DNA of 29,308 nucleotides from a virus, in IMG/VR virus record IMGVR_UViG_3300048672_001380, positions 1 to 29,308 of that record; one strand, given 5' to 3'. Below the pieces are notes generated by a model that was given only the letters and a program-made list of their open reading frames with translations, was not told the DNA's origin and searched no databases. The translations under genes and the position numbers were made by a program. Below are positions 8,131 through 16,196 of this stretch, piece by piece. Position 1 is the first letter of the stretch; the number at the start of each line of letters is the position of its first letter.

Positions 8131-8877
8131 ATGCCTACAATCACCCTCAGCACAACCAATCTGCGGACGGCCAAGCAGTTGATGAACTGCGTGTTGGGGG
8201 AGATTGGGCTTCCTTTAACCAACTCAGTCGTGAGCACGGATCAAACGGTTATACAGCTCCTGTACCTCATGAATGCCCTGGGAGAGAATCTGGCCAAATT
8301 TCCCTTGTGGGCAGATTTGCGCTCGGAGTTCCTGATCACCACGACCACGGCAGACGCGTACGATCTGCCAGTGGACTGGAATGTCCCTCTCAATGGCACG
8401 TCTTGGGACAGGACAGGGCGCTGGCCTCTTCTCGGCCCGAAGACCCCGACCGAGTGGCAATACCTCAAATCCGGGTTTGGCGTGGCGGCCCCACAGTATC
8501 GCTATCGCTACTACAACCGCCAGTTCAACCTTTTCCCCGCCCCGATCGAGGGCCTGACCCTGGTCCAGGAATATTTGTCCTCGAGCTGGGTACTCGGCCT
8601 GGACCCTTCCGGGCTCACCGCCAGCGTGGGTAAGCCCCGTATTACCCTCGATACGGATTACATCCTCCTCGACGAGCGCATGTTTATCGAAGGAGCAAAA
8701 CTCGCCTTCCTCGAAGCGAAGGGGCTGGACTCGTCCAAAGCCTTCCGCAACTTCACCGACATGATGGAAGCCGCTTGGGCCGATTCCAACGGCGCCCCAG
8801 TGCTGAGTATGGCCCCCATCCCAGCCAACATCTTCATCACGGAGTGGAACGCTCCTGATACGGGGTACGGCACATGA
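8131..8877 (+). CDS. Head-to-tail connector / tail adaptor protein (candidate)
   Basis: The 248-residue product is encoded between the coat cluster and the gp10-like gene, the position of the P22 gp4-type adaptor that docks beneath the portal. The first 70 residues are helical (NLRTAKQLMNCVLGEIGLPL, IQLLYLMNALGENLAKFPLWADL). They are followed by YDLPVDWNVPLNGTSWDR and NRQFNLFPAPIEGLTLVQEY, a pattern I associate with podovirus tail-tube/adaptor proteins that read sequence-to-structure as 'FxLFPAP..G'. A late helical stretch (MFIEGAKLAFLEAKGLD) fits the same family. Its stop overlaps the next start as ATGA. The assignment rests on pattern and order; no structure comparison could be run. Confidence 0.72.
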   Translation: MPTITLSTTNLRTAKQLMNCVLGEIGLPLTNSVVSTDQTVIQLLYLMNALGENLAKFPLWADLRSEFLITTTTADAYDLPVDWNVPLNGTSWDRTGRWPLLGPKTPTEWQYLKSGFGVAAPQYRYRYYNRQFNLFPAPIEGLTLVQEYLSSSWVLGLDPSGLTASVGKPRITLDTDYILLDERMFIEGAKLAFLEAKGLDSSKAFRNFTDMMEAAWADSNGAPVLSMAPIPANIFITEWNAPDTGYGT

Positions 8878-10427
8878 GCCTACTGACCAAGCGCAAGCCC
8901 GGACCAAAGGCCAATACGGCCCCGGTTGTTACGACCCAAACTTTGCCGGCTCCGGTACGCGGGCTGAATTTCAAAGACTCCTTGGCCGAGATGCAGCCGG
9001 GAGATGCCCTGCAACTCGACAACATCTTGTGTCGAGCGGGGTATGTGGAGGTGCGGAAAGGCTGGGCAGCTACCGCGACAGGCTTTGCCGCTGCGGTCGA
9101 GACCATCATGCCATATACTTCCATTACCGGCACAAGCCAGCGCTTCGCTGCCGCCGGTGCGGGGATCTACGACGCGACTGCCTCAGGGGCCATCGGGGCT
9201 GCTGTGGTGGCAGGCCTGACGTCGGCCTATTGGAATCATACCCAGGTCTCTAACGTGGCCGGGAACTACCTCATCTGTCTCAATGGTGTGGACAATGCCA
9301 GGATTTACGATGGCGCGGTTTGGGCAGCGTTGGGTGTGGCAGGGGTCCCGATCAACACCTTGACCCAATGTGCTGTCTGGAAGCGCCGCCTCTGGTTCGT
9401 CGAGAAGAACAAGATGCAAGCGTGGTATCTCGCCACGGACGCGATCGCGGGGGCTGCTACCGCCTTCCCCATGAACGGCATTTTCAAACGAGGCGGGAAG
9501 CTTCTCTCCATCCTCAACTGGACCATCGACGGCGGGAGCGGTTCGGATGACTATCTTCTTTTCGTCACCTCGATGGGGGAAGTTGCAGTCTACAAAGGCA
9601 CGGACCCGTCAGCGGCGGCCACTTTTGCCCTGGTCGGTGTGTACTACGTTGGGGCGCCCGTGGGAGAGCGCTACTGGGCCCAGTATGGCGGCGACGTTCT
9701 AATGCTCACAGCGGAAGGGTTGATTCCTTTCTCCAAGTACCTGCAATCGCAAACGGTGGATCGGTCAACGTTCCTGTCCGACTCGATCCAACAGCTGGTC
9801 TCGGCCGATATCTCCTTGTACGGGGCCACACAAGGATGGGAGGTTCATGTTTTCTTCGATGATAACTTCCTGATCATTCAAGTTCCTGCCGGGGCCATTG
9901 GCGCCCGCTACCAGTACGTCATGTCCACGATTACAGGGGCTTGGTCCAAGTTCCTTGTGTCCCCGGCAATTACTTGGTGTGTACAAGGAGCTTCTCTTTA
10001 CCACGGCCAATCGACGCAGGTTGCCAATGCCTGGACAGGGTACTTGGATGGTACACAAGCCATCCAGTATAACATTCTTCCCGCTTTTTCCGACTTCGGC
10101 TCCCCAACTGTTCAAAAGCTCTTTACTCTTGGCCGAGTCACCATTCAGTCGGATTTGGTGCCGGCTGTGTCTTCTCTGATGCTGGTGGATTACAACCAGG
10201 AGTACATGTTGCCGTCCGGAGCGGCTCCAGCAGCTATCGGGGCCTTGTGGGATTCCGCTGTGTGGGATTCAGCTGCCTGGGGGGCCACTTCTACCGTTTA
10301 TCGAAATTGGCTGTCCCTCAACGCTCTCGGCTATGTTGGTGCAGTAGCCCTGCAAGGTTATTCCGCGTCAGCTATTCTCCGCATCATCGCCTTGGACTAT
10401 TCGTACCAGACAGGTGGGCTGCTGTAG
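8874..10427 (+). CDS. P22 gp10-like tail hub / packaged-DNA stabilisation protein
   Basis: The 517-residue protein matches the pattern of gp10-type proteins, which close the head after packaging and form the hub beneath the portal. Typical elements are PVRGLNFKDSLAEMQPGDAL followed by QLDNILCRAGYVEVRKGW near the N-terminus, repeated beta-propeller-like blades (WNHTQVSNVAGNYLICLNGVDN, CAVWKRRLWFVEKNK, DYLLFVTSMGEVAVYKG, WAQYGGDVLMLTAEGLIPFS), and a beta-sandwich-like end with two WDSA repeats (WDSAVWDSAAWG). The start overlaps the connector's stop (ATGA). The stop is four bases before a strong sigma70 promoter, so this gene closes the first transcription segment of the block. Confidence 0.82.
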   Translation: MSLLTKRKPGPKANTAPVVTTQTLPAPVRGLNFKDSLAEMQPGDALQLDNILCRAGYVEVRKGWAATATGFAAAVETIMPYTSITGTSQRFAAAGAGIYDATASGAIGAAVVAGLTSAYWNHTQVSNVAGNYLICLNGVDNARIYDGAVWAALGVAGVPINTLTQCAVWKRRLWFVEKNKMQAWYLATDAIAGAATAFPMNGIFKRGGKLLSILNWTIDGGSGSDDYLLFVTSMGEVAVYKGTDPSAAATFALVGVYYVGAPVGERYWAQYGGDVLMLTAEGLIPFSKYLQSQTVDRSTFLSDSIQQLVSADISLYGATQGWEVHVFFDDNFLIIQVPAGAIGARYQYVMSTITGAWSKFLVSPAITWCVQGASLYHGQSTQVANAWTGYLDGTQAIQYNILPAFSDFGSPTVQKLFTLGRVTIQSDLVPAVSSLMLVDYNQEYMLPSGAAPAAIGALWDSAVWDSAAWGATSTVYRNWLSLNALGYVGAVALQGYSASAILRIIALDYSYQTGGLL

Positions 10428-10430
10428 GTC

Positions 10431-10459
10431 TTGACGGGGGGCCACCCGGCCCGTACAAT
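10431..10459 (+). promoter_or_regulatory. Sigma70-type promoter upstream of the cupin gene
   Basis: TTGACG at 10431-10436 is separated by exactly 17 bases from TACAAT at 10454-10459. Each hexamer is one mismatch from consensus (TTGACA, TATAAT), and the spacing is ideal. It lies in the longest non-coding gap of the plus-strand block (10428-10511). Transcription would begin near 10466, giving a leader of about 45 bases before the cupin ATG. Confidence 0.8.
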
Positions 10460-10511
10460 GCCCCCGTTCGCCTCTCCTCGCATGGAAGGCCCTTTTCACA
10501 AGGACACCTCC

Positions 10512-10847
10512 ATGCAACAACTTCCCCTCGAGAACAACCCCGCCGAACAAGGGCTGGATATCGAACACTTGTTCGGTGACCGGCACTATGTCAAAGTGGC
10601 ATACTTGCAAGCTGGCCAAGAGATTGGCAAGCATCGGCATCCGACTGCTCACGTCTCGGTGTTGCTGAAAGGCGAAGTCATCCTTCGCACTGTGGGTTAT
10701 GAGCGGAGAATCCAAGGTCCCTATGCTGTGAATGTGCCGGCTAGGGATGCCCACTCCATCATCACCTTGACTCCCTGCGAATGGCTCTGCATCCATGAGA
10801 TCGAGCAGGGGCAACGTGAACTCCCGATCATGGAGCATTTGGATTGA
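10512..10847 (+). CDS. Cupin-fold metalloprotein (small single-domain cupin)
   Basis: A 111-residue protein with one cupin barrel. Motif 1 reads G35-x5-H41-x-H43-x3-H47-x6-G54, where His replaces the usual Glu. Motif 2 reads G-x5-6-P with H81 at the fourth ligand position. The four histidines (41, 43, 47, 81) would make a complete metal site. I chose the ATG at 10512 because AAGGAC lies 6 bases upstream; in-frame starts further up would overlap the promoter and add a low-complexity leader. The stop overlaps the TTG start of the hydroxylase-like gene, so the two are co-translated and probably act together. The substrate is unknown. Small cupins can be dioxygenases, isomerases or binding proteins; the sequence does not decide. 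Confidence 0.88.
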   Translation: MQQLPLENNPAEQGLDIEHLFGDRHYVKVAYLQAGQEIGKHRHPTAHVSVLLKGEVILRTVGYERRIQGPYAVNVPARDAHSIITLTPCEWLCIHEIEQGQRELPIMEHLD

Positions 10848-11395
10848 ACCTGCCGCCGATCCATCTGCTACAGCGCGATCTCTCGCACACCAGCGAGATT
10901 GGGGATGCTTTAGCTTCCCATCCCGAGTTGTGGAATCAGCATACGCTGCGCACGGCTTCGCCAAAGTCTCCTCATCGGGAAGTGGATGATATTTGGGTAA
11001 GGTACTCCCTAACCTACCCTGTCGATCCGACAAAGCCCTATTACCCGGAATGGTATCCCGCTTGTGATGTTCTCCCTGTCAGGAAGCTGGCTCGAGACCT
11101 TATGGCTGCGGTAGATGGGGAGTTTCTTGGCAGCGTCCTGATCACGCGAGTGCCGCCGAGAAAGCAGGTTTACCCGCACCGAGATACTGACTGGCACGCT
11201 GGTTTTTACGACAAATACGCTCTCCAGCTCAAAGGCAACCTGCAACAAGCCTTTTGTTATGAAGGTGTGAATTTCAAGTCCGAGACCGGCGATCTGTACT
11301 GGTTTCGTAACGACCTAGACCACTGGGTTATCAACAATTCGGACGAAGAGCGAATTACCCTCATCGTTTGTATCAAGCCAGGAAAGGGGTATTAA
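10844..11395 (+). CDS. 2-oxoglutarate/Fe(II)-dependent aspartyl/asparaginyl hydroxylase-like enzyme
   Basis: A 183-residue product resembling the aspartyl/asparaginyl beta-hydroxylase family, which uses 2-oxoglutarate, O2 and Fe(II) to hydroxylate side chains. The iron triad is visible as H112-R-D114 (VYPHRDTDWHAG) and H160 (DHWVINNS). R170, in DEERITLIVCI, is in place to bind the 2-oxoglutarate carboxylate. A GDLYWFRNDLDHW core strand precedes the distal His, as in the family. Initiation is at TTG (10844), overlapping the cupin stop, so coupling to the cupin is likely; no independent Shine-Dalgarno site is seen. All catalytic residues are present, so it is probably active. The target could be a virion protein, a host protein or a free amino acid. 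Neighbouring ejection and fibre genes are tempting but unproven substrates. Confidence 0.85.
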   Translation: MNLPPIHLLQRDLSHTSEIGDALASHPELWNQHTLRTASPKSPHREVDDIWVRYSLTYPVDPTKPYYPEWYPACDVLPVRKLARDLMAAVDGEFLGSVLITRVPPRKQVYPHRDTDWHAGFYDKYALQLKGNLQQAFCYEGVNFKSETGDLYWFRNDLDHWVINNSDEERITLIVCIKPGKGY

Positions 11396-11396
11396 C

Positions 11397-12791
11397 ATGC
11401 CGTTCGGATGGGTAGCTGGAGGCGCATTGCTTGGTGGAGTGCTGGGAGGCGGTCGGCCTGACACGCCGGATTACACCGGGGCTGCTCTGGCCCAGGGCAA
11501 GATTGATCACGACACTGCGCTGGAAATGGCGCAGCTCAACCGGCTGGACGAGACCACGCCGTTGGGCTCGGTCAAGTACAAGCGAATCGTGGACAAGGAT
11601 GCTCCCGGCGGAGTTCGCTACGAGCGGGACACAACCCTCTCCCCCGAGCAACAAAAGCTGTACAACCTAGACACCGGGAACAAGACCACTTCCCTGAACA
11701 TCGCTGACTCCCTGGGCAAAACCCTAGGCGACTCGGTGAAGGACAAATTCACTCTGGACAAGTACGGCAAATCGACCAAGGTCGGCAAAGGCCCGAAGTT
11801 CCAGACCATCCAGGGCAAAGGTCCTCAGATGAAGGACTTGGGCACCGGGCCCAATATGAAGGACTTTCAGTCCGGCCCTGAGCTAGCGATGACCGGACAA
11901 GGGCCTAACCCCCTCGACGTGAACGGGCCGCAGGCAAAAAACCTGGGCACGGCGAAGAACTACGCCGGCGGGGCGGAGGCCGTGGGCCAAGCTCTGTTTA
12001 AGCGACAAATGGCCCTAATGCAGCCGCAGATGCAGCAAGACGTCGCTGCAATGGACACGCAACTGCGAAACCAAGGCCTGCAGCCAGGGACGGAGGCCTA
12101 CAACCGTTCGATGCAGCAGCTGAAGCAAAACCAGGCGCAACAGGTGAATGACCTGGCCGGGCGCTCGGTGGAAATGCAGGGGGGCGAGCAGTCTCGTCTG
12201 GCCGGGCTGGATTTGAACCTGGATTCGCAGCGATTTGGCCAGCAAAATACGGTCACGCAATCGCAGCTGGACAAGATCAAGCAGGCGCTCACTCAACGCC
12301 TATCGGTCAATCAGGCTAACAATCAGGCCAACCAGCAAGAATACCAGAACAGCACATCTGCCCTGGAGCATAACAACGCAAACGCGCAGCAAGAGTTCCA
12401 AAACCGCGCCACTGGGCTGAACCAGAACAATCAGAACACCCAGCAAGAGTTCATGAATTACAAGGACTTGCTGGGCTTTAACAATTCGACGGCGCAGCAA
12501 GGTTACACGAACGAAACTAATGCGGCTGGTTTCAACAACCAGACCCGAGGCCAGGATATCCAAGAGGGCCTGCTTGAGCGGCAGCAACCGCTGCAAGAGT
12601 ATAATGCTTTCCGCACAGGGAATGCCCCGACCATGCCTCAGTTCCAAGGCTATTCCCCGCAGACCATCAAAGCGCCGGACACCTATGGCGCGGTGAAGGA
12701 CACCTACGCGGCTCAAGTGGGCAATGCGAACGCGCGGCAGGCTGGTTACCAGTCTTTGATCAATCTCGGCGCCAGCTACTTCGGGGGGTGA
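11397..12791 (+). CDS. Internal virion / DNA-ejection protein candidate with two repeat arrays
   Basis: This 464-residue protein is first of three consecutive large genes in the place occupied by ejection proteins in P22-like phages. Those proteins leave the capsid with the DNA and form a conduit through the envelope. It begins with a Gly-rich hydrophobic stretch (FGWVAGGALLGGVLGGG). Residues 132-185 are six units of 8-10 residues each beginning Gly-Pro. A central helical Gln/Met/Leu segment (about 195-305) contains the QPQMQQDVAAMDTQLRNQGL and GTEAYNRSMQQL patterns common in such proteins. Residues 308-397 are five exact 18-residue units starting Asn-Asn. The gene starts two bases after the hydroxylase stop behind GGAAAGGGG. 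The ejection role is inferred from order and composition. Confidence 0.75.
   Translation: MPFGWVAGGALLGGVLGGGRPDTPDYTGAALAQGKIDHDTALEMAQLNRLDETTPLGSVKYKRIVDKDAPGGVRYERDTTLSPEQQKLYNLDTGNKTTSLNIADSLGKTLGDSVKDKFTLDKYGKSTKVGKGPKFQTIQGKGPQMKDLGTGPNMKDFQSGPELAMTGQGPNPLDVNGPQAKNLGTAKNYAGGAEAVGQALFKRQMALMQPQMQQDVAAMDTQLRNQGLQPGTEAYNRSMQQLKQNQAQQVNDLAGRSVEMQGGEQSRLAGLDLNLDSQRFGQQNTVTQSQLDKIKQALTQRLSVNQANNQANQQEYQNSTSALEHNNANAQQEFQNRATGLNQNNQNTQQEFMNYKDLLGFNNSTAQQGYTNETNAAGFNNQTRGQDIQEGLLERQQPLQEYNAFRTGNAPTMPQFQGYSPQTIKAPDTYGAVKDTYAAQVGNANARQAGYQSLINLGASYFGG
11790..11951 (+). repeat. Array of six Gly-Pro units in the ejection-type protein
   Basis: Residues 132-185 split into GPKFQTIQGK, GPQMKDLGT, GPNMKDFQS, GPELAMTGQ, GPNPLDVN and GPQAKNLGT. 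Units 2 and 3 share the MKD core, and unit 6 resembles unit 2. DNA copies have diverged, so the array is old and held by protein function. Confidence 0.8.
12318..12587 (+). repeat. Five tandem 54-bp units encoding an 18-residue Asn/Gln-rich repeat
   Basis: Units start at 12318, 12372, 12426, 12480 and 12534, always 54 bases apart with no slip. Each begins Asn-Asn, has a Gln-Gln or Gly-Gln pair near position 6-7, and most have an aromatic or Ile at position 9. Examples are NNANAQQEFQNRATGLNQ and NNQNTQQEFMNYKDLLGF. Eighteen residues equals five helical turns. The last unit is the most diverged. Confidence 0.88.
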
Positions 12792-12792
12792 G

Positions 12793-14202
12793 ATGAATTA
12801 TCAAAACTTCTCGGCACCGGTTCCTGGAGTGCCTGAGTTTGGCCAGGAAATGGCCAGTCTAAACGTGGAGCAAAAAATGCTTCTGGAGTCGCTCATGGCG
12901 AAGCGGGCACAGGCGAGACAAGGAGCGGCGCCGCTAGAAGCTGGCGGGCACACTGTACTCAATCTGGCCCCGCTCGGAGCCGCTCTGGGGGCGCGTCGGG
13001 ACAAAGAAGAACTGGAAACGACTCGGAAAAAACAAGCTGATGTGACCGGTCGGTATCAGACCGAACTGCTGGCCCAGATGCGCCGGATGCGGCAGAATTT
13101 ATCGGGGAGCGAACAGGAATTGCCTGGTCCAACGGAATCGGGTGCTCCGCTGACAGGGATGACCAAGCCCAACCAGCGAGGGTATGAGGAGTACTTGTCC
13201 TCCCCCTTTCCTGAAGTTCGGGCGGCAGCGGAGGCTGAGCAAAAGCGTTATCAAAGTCGGGCGGACGAACTGGCCAAGCGTTCCACGGTGGGCTCGGTGC
13301 AAGCGGCTGGGGACGACTTGGGCAAGTACCAAGCGAAGCCCGAGTACAAAGAAGTCAACGGCGCCGTGATGGACCTGAGTGGGGAAGCCCCGCCGTCCGT
13401 GGCCCCGGGCATGGGGGTGACACAGATTACTTCTCCTGGCGGCGTCTTGGCTAATCAATATCCTGGGGGCAAACAGGACACAGTAGACAAAGGCATCAAA
13501 ATTCAGATGCCAGGCCAAGATTTGGTAGCTGAGCGGATCAAAATGCTTCCTGAAGACAAGAAGGAAGCCGAAGGTGCTGCCAACCTGATCCAGACCTCGC
13601 AGCAGGCTATCGCGGCTCTGCGAGAAGGGGCAGTGGCTGGGGGCGGAGCGAATTACAAGAACATCGCGAAGAATCTGGTCACTGGGCTCACTGGTATTCC
13701 GTTTCCCGAGAATACTCCCACGGCCGTGCTGGCAAAAAGCTTGGCCAAAGCTACGTTGGAAGATATGGGTGGACGTCTTGGCGCCGGCGTGTCCAATGCC
13801 GATCGGGAGTACATGGCAGACGCTAACGGTGCACTGAGCACGGACCCTCATGCGCTGGAACGCATCTTGGCCATCCGGATGGGGGGAGCCGAACGCCTCG
13901 TGCGTACTCACAATGATCAAGTGGAAACTCTATCCACCTTGCCCAACAACCCATATGGAGCCGAAGCAACGAAAAAGTTGTTCCAGATCAAGCCACCTGG
14001 CCTGAACTATTCCCCCGCCACGCCGGAGGCTGCTGCTGCCTTCGAATCCAACATGACTCGACGCGCGTACAACGACGTGTTAGGGGAAACCAAAGGGATG
14101 AAATACGGCGGACCAACGGCTCCAAACGAAAACCCCGAAGAGCGGGCTCGCAAGCGTATGCAGGAACTCGGCTTGCCCTACACCCCGCCCGGAGGCCGCT
14201 AA
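12793..14202 (+). CDS. Second ejection-type internal virion protein candidate
   Basis: A 469-residue, mostly helical protein starting one base after the previous stop and ending TAATG into the next gene. Early parts contain SLNVEQKMLLESLMAKRAQAR and a charged coiled-coil-like region (ARRDKEELETTRKKQADVTGRY). The later segment ANLIQTSQQAIAALREGAV leads to AKSLAKATLEDMGGRLGAGVS and NADREYMADANGALSTDP. I recognise this last pattern from large structural or DNA-transfer proteins of podoviruses. No transglycosylase or protease motif was found. Its place among three consecutive large helical genes before the fibre supports a role in the ejected conduit, but this is inference. Confidence 0.75.
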   Translation: MNYQNFSAPVPGVPEFGQEMASLNVEQKMLLESLMAKRAQARQGAAPLEAGGHTVLNLAPLGAALGARRDKEELETTRKKQADVTGRYQTELLAQMRRMRQNLSGSEQELPGPTESGAPLTGMTKPNQRGYEEYLSSPFPEVRAAAEAEQKRYQSRADELAKRSTVGSVQAAGDDLGKYQAKPEYKEVNGAVMDLSGEAPPSVAPGMGVTQITSPGGVLANQYPGGKQDTVDKGIKIQMPGQDLVAERIKMLPEDKKEAEGAANLIQTSQQAIAALREGAVAGGGANYKNIAKNLVTGLTGIPFPENTPTAVLAKSLAKATLEDMGGRLGAGVSNADREYMADANGALSTDPHALERILAIRMGGAERLVRTHNDQVETLSTLPNNPYGAEATKKLFQIKPPGLNYSPATPEAAAAFESNMTRRAYNDVLGETKGMKYGGPTAPNENPEERARKRMQELGLPYTPPGGR

Positions 14203-16196
14203 TGGCTACGCCTGAAGATCTCCGCCGCATCCAAGATGCGATTCTCTCGACGGACCCTCAAGATGTCGAAACAGTCGAGTTGCTCAAGGATCAATACACA
14301 CGTGCACGTTCGAGCCTTGCATCTGCTCAACCGCGTGCGCTTGCGCCGGCAGGAGCAGCAGGCGCGCCAGTTGGAGGAGGAGGAGGAAACGCCTCCGACC
14401 TCCCTAACCCGCGAACTGCAGCGGCTGTACTCGCGACTGCGCCGGCTAAGGGAATAGCCGGGATGGCCGATCTGGCCGGGGCTGGTTGGGATGTAGCGAA
14501 GAGGTTGGGGCATGTGGATTCGCCGTCGTTTCCCCGACTGACCCCGCAGGTTGATCGTTTGACGGACGAGCTGGCCGGGAAGCCGGTGGAGAACGGGGTA
14601 GGGAGGGCCGCATTTGAGGGTGCGGTAATGGCCCCATTATCGGGGGCCAAATCTATGGGGGAGCTGATCCCCCAAGCCGTATCTGGCGCAGCGGCTGGGG
14701 GTGCCTCCAAGGCTACTGCCGACGCCGGCGGGAATGGCTATGCCCAGCTTGCTGCCGCACTTCTGGCGGGACATGCAGCGGGAAGTCTGGCGACCAATCG
14801 CGGGCTGAGCTTGAAAGAACTGACAGCAAAGGGAAAACTGCGCCGGGCGACTGAAGGATTGTCGGAGGATGATTTTCGAGCGGCCCTGGGGGCCCAGGCG
14901 ACAGCAAAAGGCGAAGGGACGTCCTTGCTGCCGAGCCAAGCCATGCCGGGGGCAGCCCCTGGGCTGGAAGAACTCCAGGGGGCATTACTCCGTAGCCGGG
15001 CTTCAGGGGCAGATAAATTCCGCACGGATGTGGCGAAACAGCCAAAAGACGTGCAGATGCTGGTGGAGAAGCTACGTTTGGCTGGCGGACAGACTCCGCG
15101 TTCTCCTGATCAAATCGCTGATGCGGTGCAGCAGTTTGCCGAGGCTGAAGCAGCGAAAGGGCCAAAGGCCATCAACGAAGCGACCAAGCCTCTGTATAAC
15201 GACCCCTTGGGCAAAGCCTGGACAATCAAGCCAGACGTGGTTGATCGGGTGGGGCTGGGCTTTGACCAAGCTATTCACGAGAACCGGGCAAATCCTGCGG
15301 TAACCGGGGCGTTAACTCAGGCTCGTCAGATTATTGTCGATGCGATGAGCATGGGACGGCCCACCCCGAAAATCGTGGCGGATGCTGTGCAGTCGGTGAA
15401 GACGCTTCTTCCGGCCTATTCGGAATATCCTCAAGCTGCCAATCATGTACGCGGGGTTGTTTCGAATTTGGTCAAGCCGCTCGAAGACATGGTGGCAAAA
15501 CAGTCGCCAGGATTGGGGCAAGCTCCGAAAATGCAGGCGGAACTGCGAGGGGTATTGCCTTCGTCGTTTGACGCGACGCTGCGACAGGCTTCGACTACCT
15601 CGGGTACGGAAGGGGCTATTGCTGCAATTCAGAAACGACCGGAGGTCCTTCGCCAGCTCGCAGACACCAATCCGCAACTGGCTCAGGAAATTATCCAAAT
15701 GCAACTGGATCAGGCAATTGCCAAAGCAACTGCAGTGAATAGTCGGACAGGGGTATCACCAGGGAATGAGGGCATTGCGCTGAAGAAAAGTCTCACAGAA
15801 GGGGACTCGGGCAAGGCTTTCAATGCTTCCCTTGATCTCCTCTTCCCCGGGCGCCCTGATGCAGCGACAGGCTTTCGCCGCGTCCTCGATGTTGTGGCGA
15901 ATGCAAGCAAACCGCGCGTCGCTGGCGGAAGCGGATCTGGCTGGAATCCGTCCGCAGCTGAGGAAGGAGTACGTCTGACCGGCGGTTCTCTCGGTCAACA
16001 GGTTGGCGTCATGTCCCGCCTTACAGGTGGCTTCTTCACAAACATCCGCGACAACGCTACAATCGCGGTGCTGAGCAAGCCTGACGCAATCGAGCGATTG
16101 GCCGCGATTTCCAAGATGCCGCAGCCGGCGCTTACCTTACCAGCCGTCATGGCGGCTTTGCCCACTCTTTTTGAGGAGCCGAAAAATGGCCCGTGA
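14202..16196 (+). CDS. Third ejection-type internal virion protein candidate
   Basis: The largest of the trio, 664 residues. A short helical N-terminus (PEDLRRIQDAILSTDPQDVE) is followed by an Ala/Gly-rich region of about residues 45-200. This holds several weakly hydrophobic stretches (TAAAVLATAPAKGIAGMADL, AQLAAALLAGHAAGSLA) that could associate with membrane. The rest is helical and Gln/Ala-rich. Composition and place fit proteins that pass the tail with the DNA and insert in the envelope. No enzymatic motif is visible: I looked for a lysozyme/transglycosylase Glu context and found none convincing. Start and stop both overlap neighbours (TAATG upstream; the fibre ATG at 16186 lies inside this gene's last 11 bases). 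Confidence 0.74.
   Translation: MATPEDLRRIQDAILSTDPQDVETVELLKDQYTRARSSLASAQPRALAPAGAAGAPVGGGGGNASDLPNPRTAAAVLATAPAKGIAGMADLAGAGWDVAKRLGHVDSPSFPRLTPQVDRLTDELAGKPVENGVGRAAFEGAVMAPLSGAKSMGELIPQAVSGAAAGGASKATADAGGNGYAQLAAALLAGHAAGSLATNRGLSLKELTAKGKLRRATEGLSEDDFRAALGAQATAKGEGTSLLPSQAMPGAAPGLEELQGALLRSRASGADKFRTDVAKQPKDVQMLVEKLRLAGGQTPRSPDQIADAVQQFAEAEAAKGPKAINEATKPLYNDPLGKAWTIKPDVVDRVGLGFDQAIHENRANPAVTGALTQARQIIVDAMSMGRPTPKIVADAVQSVKTLLPAYSEYPQAANHVRGVVSNLVKPLEDMVAKQSPGLGQAPKMQAELRGVLPSSFDATLRQASTTSGTEGAIAAIQKRPEVLRQLADTNPQLAQEIIQMQLDQAIAKATAVNSRTGVSPGNEGIALKKSLTEGDSGKAFNASLDLLFPGRPDAATGFRRVLDVVANASKPRVAGGSGSGWNPSAAEEGVRLTGGSLGQQVGVMSRLTGGFFTNIRDNATIAVLSKPDAIERLAAISKMPQPALTLPAVMAALPTLFEEPKNGP

Follow-up and report, generated by a model that had tools for sequence, protein, structure and literature searches.

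A cupin gene and a directly adjoining gene for a 2-oxoglutarate/Fe(II) hydroxylase, found on an IMG/VR virus fragment of 29,308 bases (the whole stretch analysed, hereafter the window), lie immediately before the first ejection-protein gene, and from this place, which is conserved in related phages, we infer that the pair is a morphogenesis module. The enzyme in this slot and the N-terminus of the next protein are linked. This pattern is suggestive of a chemical tailoring of the DNA-injection machinery by the phages, and we tentatively favour the reading that the pair acts in virion assembly on the N-terminus of the adjacent ejection protein (11397–12791), with a putative substrate, site and chemistry deduced from sequence comparison. 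Ejection proteins form the channel that carries the DNA of short-tailed phages across the cell envelope, and the small genes directly before them (13 in T7, 14 in P22) have so far been given vague assembly roles. We found no paper on the cupin and hydroxylase or on the slot in our partial coverage of the literature.

The gene pair within the virion block

The window has its virion genes on the + strand, and from about 19.7 kb replication genes occupy the - strand. The virion block comprises terminase, portal, capsid, adaptor, a stabilisation-type protein and, from 11397, three ejection-type proteins. Cupin and hydroxylase occupy the interval 10427–11397, and the ejection-protein gene starts 2 nt past the hydroxylase stop. 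The original prediction had placed the pair inside the virion block, which is borne out by gene order and by the profile matches of the neighbours.

8131–8877, + strand: SU10-type adaptor/tail protein, 248 aa (profile matches, comparison with the nearest relative, L128)
8874–10427, + strand: tail protein of the stabilisation/head-closure type, 517 aa, bordering the slot upstream (PHROG, relatives)
10431–10459, + strand: sigma70-like promoter candidate TTGACG-17-TACAAT, 10/12 matches, within the 84 nt that follow the stabilisation gene
10500–10504, + strand: Shine-Dalgarno AAGGA of the cupin (sequence)
10512–10847, + strand: cupin, 111 aa, with a four-His metal site (H41/H43/H47/H81) and C93 (sequence, Pfam, AlphaFold2)
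10832–10835, + strand: GGAG, likely ribosome site of the hydroxylase within the end of the cupin gene (sequence)
10844–11395, + strand: 2-oxoglutarate/Fe(II) hydroxylase of the Asp_Arg_Hydrox fold, 183 aa, TTG start (Pfam, AlphaFold2, conserved residues)
11397–12791, + strand: first ejection/internal virion protein, 464 aa, the proposed substrate (phrog_6121, virion structural protein)
11397–11453, + strand: N-terminal segment MPFGWVAGGALLGGVLGGG of the first ejection protein, of a type seen after cupin or P-loop slots
12793–14202, + strand: second ejection-type protein, 469 aa (gene order; 38% identity to L128)
14202–16196, + strand: third ejection-type protein, 664 aa (gene order; 59% identity to L128)

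Position, gene order and phrog_6121 are the grounds for the label 'first ejection protein', because homology between its family and P22 gp7 was not detectable. The PHROG name 'amidase' (phrog_5107) of the stabilisation-type protein (8874–10427) looks like a misannotation.

The promoter candidate is plausible because it is located in the 84-nt gap of a tightly packed block, but it is weak and only mildly unusual statistically: shuffled sequence is expected to contain 1.5 sites with at least 9/12 matches per 3.5 kb, about 1% of random 88-nt windows contain a site with at least 10/12, and the + strand of the window (29.3 kb) has five of the latter. The 'near-consensus sigma70 promoter' described earlier thus exists as a 10/12 site and is not near-consensus in a statistically strong sense.

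The cupin starts at ATG 10512, with a good ribosome binding site upstream, while the mechanically called ORF begins at 10431. Counted from this ATG, the candidate ligands H41, H43, H47 and H81 are exactly as predicted, and they are invariant, together with C93, in 21 relatives. The protein scores 27.5 bits against Pfam Cupin_2 (PF07883, cut-off 27.2), and its AlphaFold2 model (pLDDT 86.8) has cupin folds as best PDB matches, so that score, beta-barrel and metal histidines all place it in this family. With small metal cupins such as TM1459 (PDB 1VJ2) it shares the fold and the metal-site histidines; in contrast to them it has an invariant HxHxxxH...H with C93 and a nearly invariant H95, and in nearly all loci examined it occurs in phages, either as a slot gene or as a domain of a fusion protein. 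The PHROG name 'tail fiber adhesin' (phrog_24280, phrog_12032) looks like a misannotation and was rejected for this protein, which is a single cupin domain of 111 aa to which the PHROG match is confined.

The hydroxylase start (TTG 10844) overlaps the cupin TGA (10845–10847), and the description of the two genes as directly coupled is therefore correct. The H112-x-D114 ... H160 ... R170 pattern that had been read from the sequence is present, with H112, D114 and H160 invariant and R170 more than 90% conserved in 39 relatives. The protein reaches 27.4 bits against Pfam Asp_Arg_Hydrox (PF05118, cut-off 22.6), and its AlphaFold2 model (pLDDT 94.0, pTM 0.90), the PDB matches and the residue conservation agree on a double-stranded beta-helix (DSBH) with H-x-D...H iron ligands and an arginine for 2-oxoglutarate. 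L-proline cis-4-hydroxylase is the best solved relative by sequence profile (1.6e-9) and nearest in a fold search with the model (2.8e-9), in which other 2-oxoglutarate hydroxylases and AspH also match. Enzymes close to the window hydroxylase act on free proline. L-proline cis-4-hydroxylase (PDB 4P7W) and proline 3-hydroxylase (1E5R) have the H-x-D, H, R pattern in common with the phage protein in the aligned part, at 17% identity. The N-terminal signature SPHREVDDIWVRY of the phage hydroxylase falls outside this stretch, and the phage protein is without the C-terminal part of the proline hydroxylases. Membership in the L-proline hydroxylases was rejected since the C-terminal domain of these enzymes of about 280 aa is absent from the 183-aa protein. 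With AspH the phage hydroxylase shares a score above the PF05118 cut-off and fold matches (5APA, 6YYU); it differs in having no TPR domain and in having the full H-x-D triad, whereas human AspH is known to lack the Asp iron ligand. Cyano-, pelagi- and roseophages have been reported to carry phage 2-oxoglutarate oxygenases or 'aspartyl hydroxylases' among their auxiliary metabolic genes (PMC3037559, PMC7029224, PMC11288001); compared by description only, these belong to the same broad enzyme class as the window hydroxylase, and the reports do not place them in an exclusive enzyme slot linked to an ejection protein.

The slot and its occupants in other phages

In relatives the slot follows P22 gp10 (Hc3)-type proteins and a short needle-like gene, and the enzymes are succeeded by a gp7-type protein and two large proteins; the borders are the Hc3-type phrog_578 upstream and the gp7-type 'DNA ejection' phrog_598 downstream. 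The nearest relative, L128, which is 70%, 63%, 38% and 59% identical to the window in the four genes around the slot, has a single GNAT (PF00583, 7.5e-6) exactly in place of cupin and hydroxylase. An acetyltransferase is annotated in the same slot of BUCT555, pCB2047-C, Mx8, ctMlz233, RHph_I3_18 and ppBjS10J-1. Among cultured phages, Myxococcus Mx8 and Sulfitobacter pCB2047-C have only the GNAT, and Pseudomonas phage PfAn1 has a GNAT together with the hydroxylase. The identity of the slot is settled because the nearest relatives hold a GNAT in place of the pair between homologous flanking genes. GNAT profiles miss diverged GNATs, and since simple ORF rules were used to call genes on metagenomic contigs, individual starts may be wrong.

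T7 gene 13 and P22 gene 14 have the same place as the pair, after tail/head-closure and needle genes and directly before the first ejection protein (gp14 in T7, gp7 in P22). Cupin and hydroxylase are folds unrelated to gp13 and gp14, and no window protein matched PF11090 (gp13) or PF11039 (gp14) in Pfam; the pair was accordingly rejected as a member of either family, with which it shares the working place and no sequence homology. A profile of the slot GNATs of the window's relatives gave a weak match to P22 gp14 over 104 columns (hhalign P = 5e-4, probability 32%). P22 gp14 did not match the first slot GNAT profile, and T7 gp13 matched none of the slot GNAT profiles.

Searches of the virus collection returned 55 viral loci with the hydroxylase as query and 80 with a hydroxylase alignment, while only one contig matched among 84,980 bacterial and archaeal genomes. 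This sole cellular match (L124), a 4.4-kb contig from a Terriglobales MAG, has a phage virion gene order and is probably a phage contig. Over 34 hydroxylase lineages, defined at 70% identity, the partner is a cupin in 15, a P-loop protein in 10 and a GNAT in six, and none was recognised in three, one of which lies at a contig end. The cupin lineages consist of one fusion, seven with the cupin upstream and seven with the cupin downstream. The P-loop partner is upstream in its 10 lineages and carries a sulfotransferase-type PRSxT motif (Pfam sulfotransferase below cut-off; phrog_10855 at 3.7e-44 for one), and the GNAT is downstream in its six (PF00583 at 4e-8 and 4e-11 for two). Two partners together occur in none of the 34 lineages; were the 15, 10 and 6 labels placed at random on them, the chance of such disjointness would be 4e-8. 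Whole-record searches found no cupin in records with a GNAT or P-loop partner and no hydroxylase in cupin-only records. In the hydroxylase tree the GNAT-partnered enzymes form one clade (100/98), while the cupin and P-loop partners interleave and must therefore have replaced each other more than once.

A scan of the same collection with the window's own cupin as query found no relative, whereas one other cupin returned 383 viral loci; these scans used single cupins as queries. Among the 82 loci examined (the best 80 of the 383 plus two others), 31 have an adjoining hydroxylase and 51 have the cupin alone, and the gene after the cupin, mostly that of a small ejection protein, follows at a median gap of 2 nt. 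The cupin is therefore a slot occupant independently of the hydroxylase, which is an addition. This bears on the original prediction, which had joined the two genes in one pathway and had named gene order in related phages as a check. As an obligate pair the two fail this check: they are found separately, with the cupin alone in those 51 loci, a P-loop protein or GNAT in its stead in 16 lineages, and neither gene in L128. What stands is one functional unit, as cupin and hydroxylase are fused in 33 contigs and adjoining or fused in 15 of the 34 lineages. The term 'cargo module' is likewise unsuitable because the slot is a conserved position of podovirus morphogenesis.

Several loci depart from the common arrangement. 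The fused cupin-hydroxylase, a single polypeptide in one lineage of 33 contigs (L096:9650–10534 and related), lies past the ejection genes and ahead of the tail fibre rather than before the first ejection gene, and the protein after it starts MSTF. Two loci (L077, L079) have a second cupin further downstream. In one cupin lineage and one P-loop lineage an extra gene separates the hydroxylase from the ejection protein (L069:10459–11223, L100:4097–4867); its product, of family c39, has about 255 aa and no match in PHROG. One of the records, PQ492659.1 of Limnohabitans phage DC33 (L003), is assigned to Inoviridae despite a 39-kb genome with a terminase-like gene.

Slot enzyme and N-terminus of the next protein

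Met-Pro begins the first ejection protein after 25 of 27 cupin slots, all 33 slots with cupin and hydroxylase, all nine P-loop slots and both hydroxylase-only slots, and after none of 21 GNAT slots, where the start is mostly MVAAA. With ctkAd229 (MSW) included, this amounts to 69/72 against 0/21 (Fisher p 5e-18), compared with a baseline of 9/102 among neighbouring annotated genes. The exceptions to Met-Pro are MAW (L197/L198) and the MSW of ctkAd229. The counts omit the fused lineage, whose cassette is not beside the ejection gene, and the misframed L114; L178 was corrected to a GTG start, and L069 and L100 were corrected for the inserted gene. A fresh scan with one GNAT as query, run after the prediction had been written down, gave Met-Pro after 0/46 non-redundant GNAT slots, with 37 of the 46 next proteins beginning Met-Val (typically MVAAAV), and Met-Pro after 2/2 P-loop slots, one of them on a contig already in the earlier set. 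The 0/46 is only weakly below the 9% baseline (p 0.06), and the strong part of the co-variation is that Met-Pro almost always follows cupin and P-loop slots.

Both types of N-terminus occur within one ejection-protein family (135 sequences linked by homology beyond residue 25). A tree of this family from which the first 25 residues had been removed shows 12 changes of slot class, at least 5 of them on supported branches. Of five independent pairs with branch support, 4.9 have an N-terminus that tracks the slot class, and none goes in the opposite direction (p 0.06 for the five pairs; p 0.03 for six, with the window's family included). Met-Pro also follows cupin slots in downstream protein families without detectable relationship. 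Slot class and the N-terminus of the next protein thus co-vary in the manner expected of an N-terminal tailoring enzyme. The window's ejection protein starts MPFGWVAGGALLGG, while its GNAT-slot relatives start MSFI, MGKQ, MGKP, MQMG or MSSA; its MPFGW fits the rule for cupin and P-loop slots, and sequence comparison found no segment of the MPFGWVAGGALLGGVLGGG type in these relatives. T7 gp14 and P22 gp7 start MCW and MLY, respectively, as opposed to the Met-Pro of the window. The amino-acid composition of ejection proteins with and without a hydroxylase showed essentially no difference (H and V at p of about 0.02, uncorrected over 20 tests, with some rows misframed or not ejection proteins).

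Proposed function and alternative explanations

Methionine aminopeptidase removes Met before Val, Ala, Gly or Pro. Exposed N-terminal Val, Ala and Gly are typical substrates of N-terminal acetyltransferases, while N-terminal Pro is a poor one. The pairing of GNATs with MVAAA and of cupins or P-loop proteins with MPW therefore makes sense, and functionally the most economical explanation is that the N-terminus of the ejection protein is what slot enzymes bind or act upon. For the window we propose that cupin and hydroxylase would work at the time of morphogenesis, in a conserved accessory slot. Host methionine aminopeptidase would expose an N-terminal Pro on the ejection protein, the Fe(II)/2-oxoglutarate enzyme would hydroxylate this Pro or a residue nearby, with PFGWVAGGALLGG as candidate peptide substrate, and the metal cupin would catalyse, or help with, a second reaction in that segment. 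The counterpart of the cupin in other phages would be a GNAT acting on MVAAA-type N-termini or, for those of MPW type, a sulfotransferase-like P-loop protein. Among the targets considered in the original prediction, the neighbouring ejection protein is the one best supported by the comparative data, so that this part was roughly right.

This tailoring account leaves unexplained why the hydroxylase is present with both N-terminus types. Pro is not a universal modification site because the GNAT-paired hydroxylases face MVAAA N-termini, and the fused lineage, away from the first ejection gene, also speaks against the proposal. Doubtful as a joint claim is the extension to short-tailed phages at large, by which a dedicated, exchangeable slot would tailor the N-terminus of the first injected protein, with a GNAT for Met-Val/Ala/Gly, a cupin or P-loop protein for Met-Pro-Trp/Phe and a hydroxylase added in many lineages, and with gp13 and gp14 as its known members. 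If true, the role of genes of the T7 13/P22 14 type would be testable by examining whether the injected protein carries acetyl, hydroxyl or sulfo groups, genes named 'auxiliary metabolic' or 'tail fibre adhesin' would be reassigned, and this would be an unusual case of phage-coded oxygenases finishing virion proteins.

Binding alone would equally give the co-variation, and the slot proteins could be assembly chaperones that bind and shield a hydrophobic, Gly/Ala-rich ejection N-terminus until procapsid entry, with catalysis secondary or lost. T7 gp13 (Pfam 'probable scaffold protein Gp13') and P22 gp14 (named 'head morphogenesis' and 'virion stability factor') occupy the slot, and several slot GNATs (L128, Mx8 p53) look degenerate at the CoA motif. 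We regard this as unlikely, given that the metal and 2-oxoglutarate residues, needless for a pure chaperone, are invariant or nearly so across very diverged hydroxylases and cupins.

Quite unlikely, in our view, is a role in auxiliary metabolism, in which the hydroxylase would act on free proline or another amino acid and the cupin on a metabolite, the place in the virion block being incidental. The nearest solved relatives of the hydroxylase use free amino acids, and aspartyl hydroxylase and GNAT are both named among auxiliary metabolic genes in the phage genome literature, a listing that fits such a role (PMC11288001). A related cupin/P-loop swap in the early region of the siphophages Elanor and PaMx28, far from virion genes, points the same way. 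Against it stand the constant location immediately upstream of the ejection gene, even where the ejection proteins are not homologous, the exclusive partners, the co-variation with the N-terminus of the next protein and the near absence of cellular relatives with the hydroxylase signature.

The main alternative to N-terminal tailoring is hitchhiking, in which a single recombination unit would carry the slot gene along with the beginning of its downstream neighbour, enzyme and N-terminus being functionally unconnected. Because the genes are 2 nt apart, one breakpoint about 20 codons into the next gene could move both, and the comparison of the window with L128 looks so. We rate it as less probable again, since Met-Pro after cupin slots recurs in downstream families that are not detectably related, and since cupins and P-loop proteins, unrelated yet repeatedly swapping, go with the same type of N-terminus. 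Least probable is a different virion or host protein as target (tail fibre, head-closure protein, host surface or defence protein), for which the fused cupin-hydroxylase between ejection genes and tail fibre and the equally close stabilisation-protein and needle-like genes upstream could be cited, but the signal in the N-terminus downstream favours the ejection protein.

The siphophage swap, seen in an unrelated phage family, is the same as that in the podovirus slot: at equivalent places after homologous genes, near the primase-polymerase, one of the two phages has a cupin, annotated 'short tail fiber adhesin', and the other a P-loop protein (Elanor and PaMx28; L136:4504–4869, L135:4495–5037). 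No hydroxylase was found near either gene. The window's ejection protein (11397–12791) also contains GP-rich (residues ~128–180) and N/Q-rich (~295–400) repeat blocks that are missing in its GNAT-slot relatives, a hint, from one case only, that these repeats might serve as enzyme substrate.
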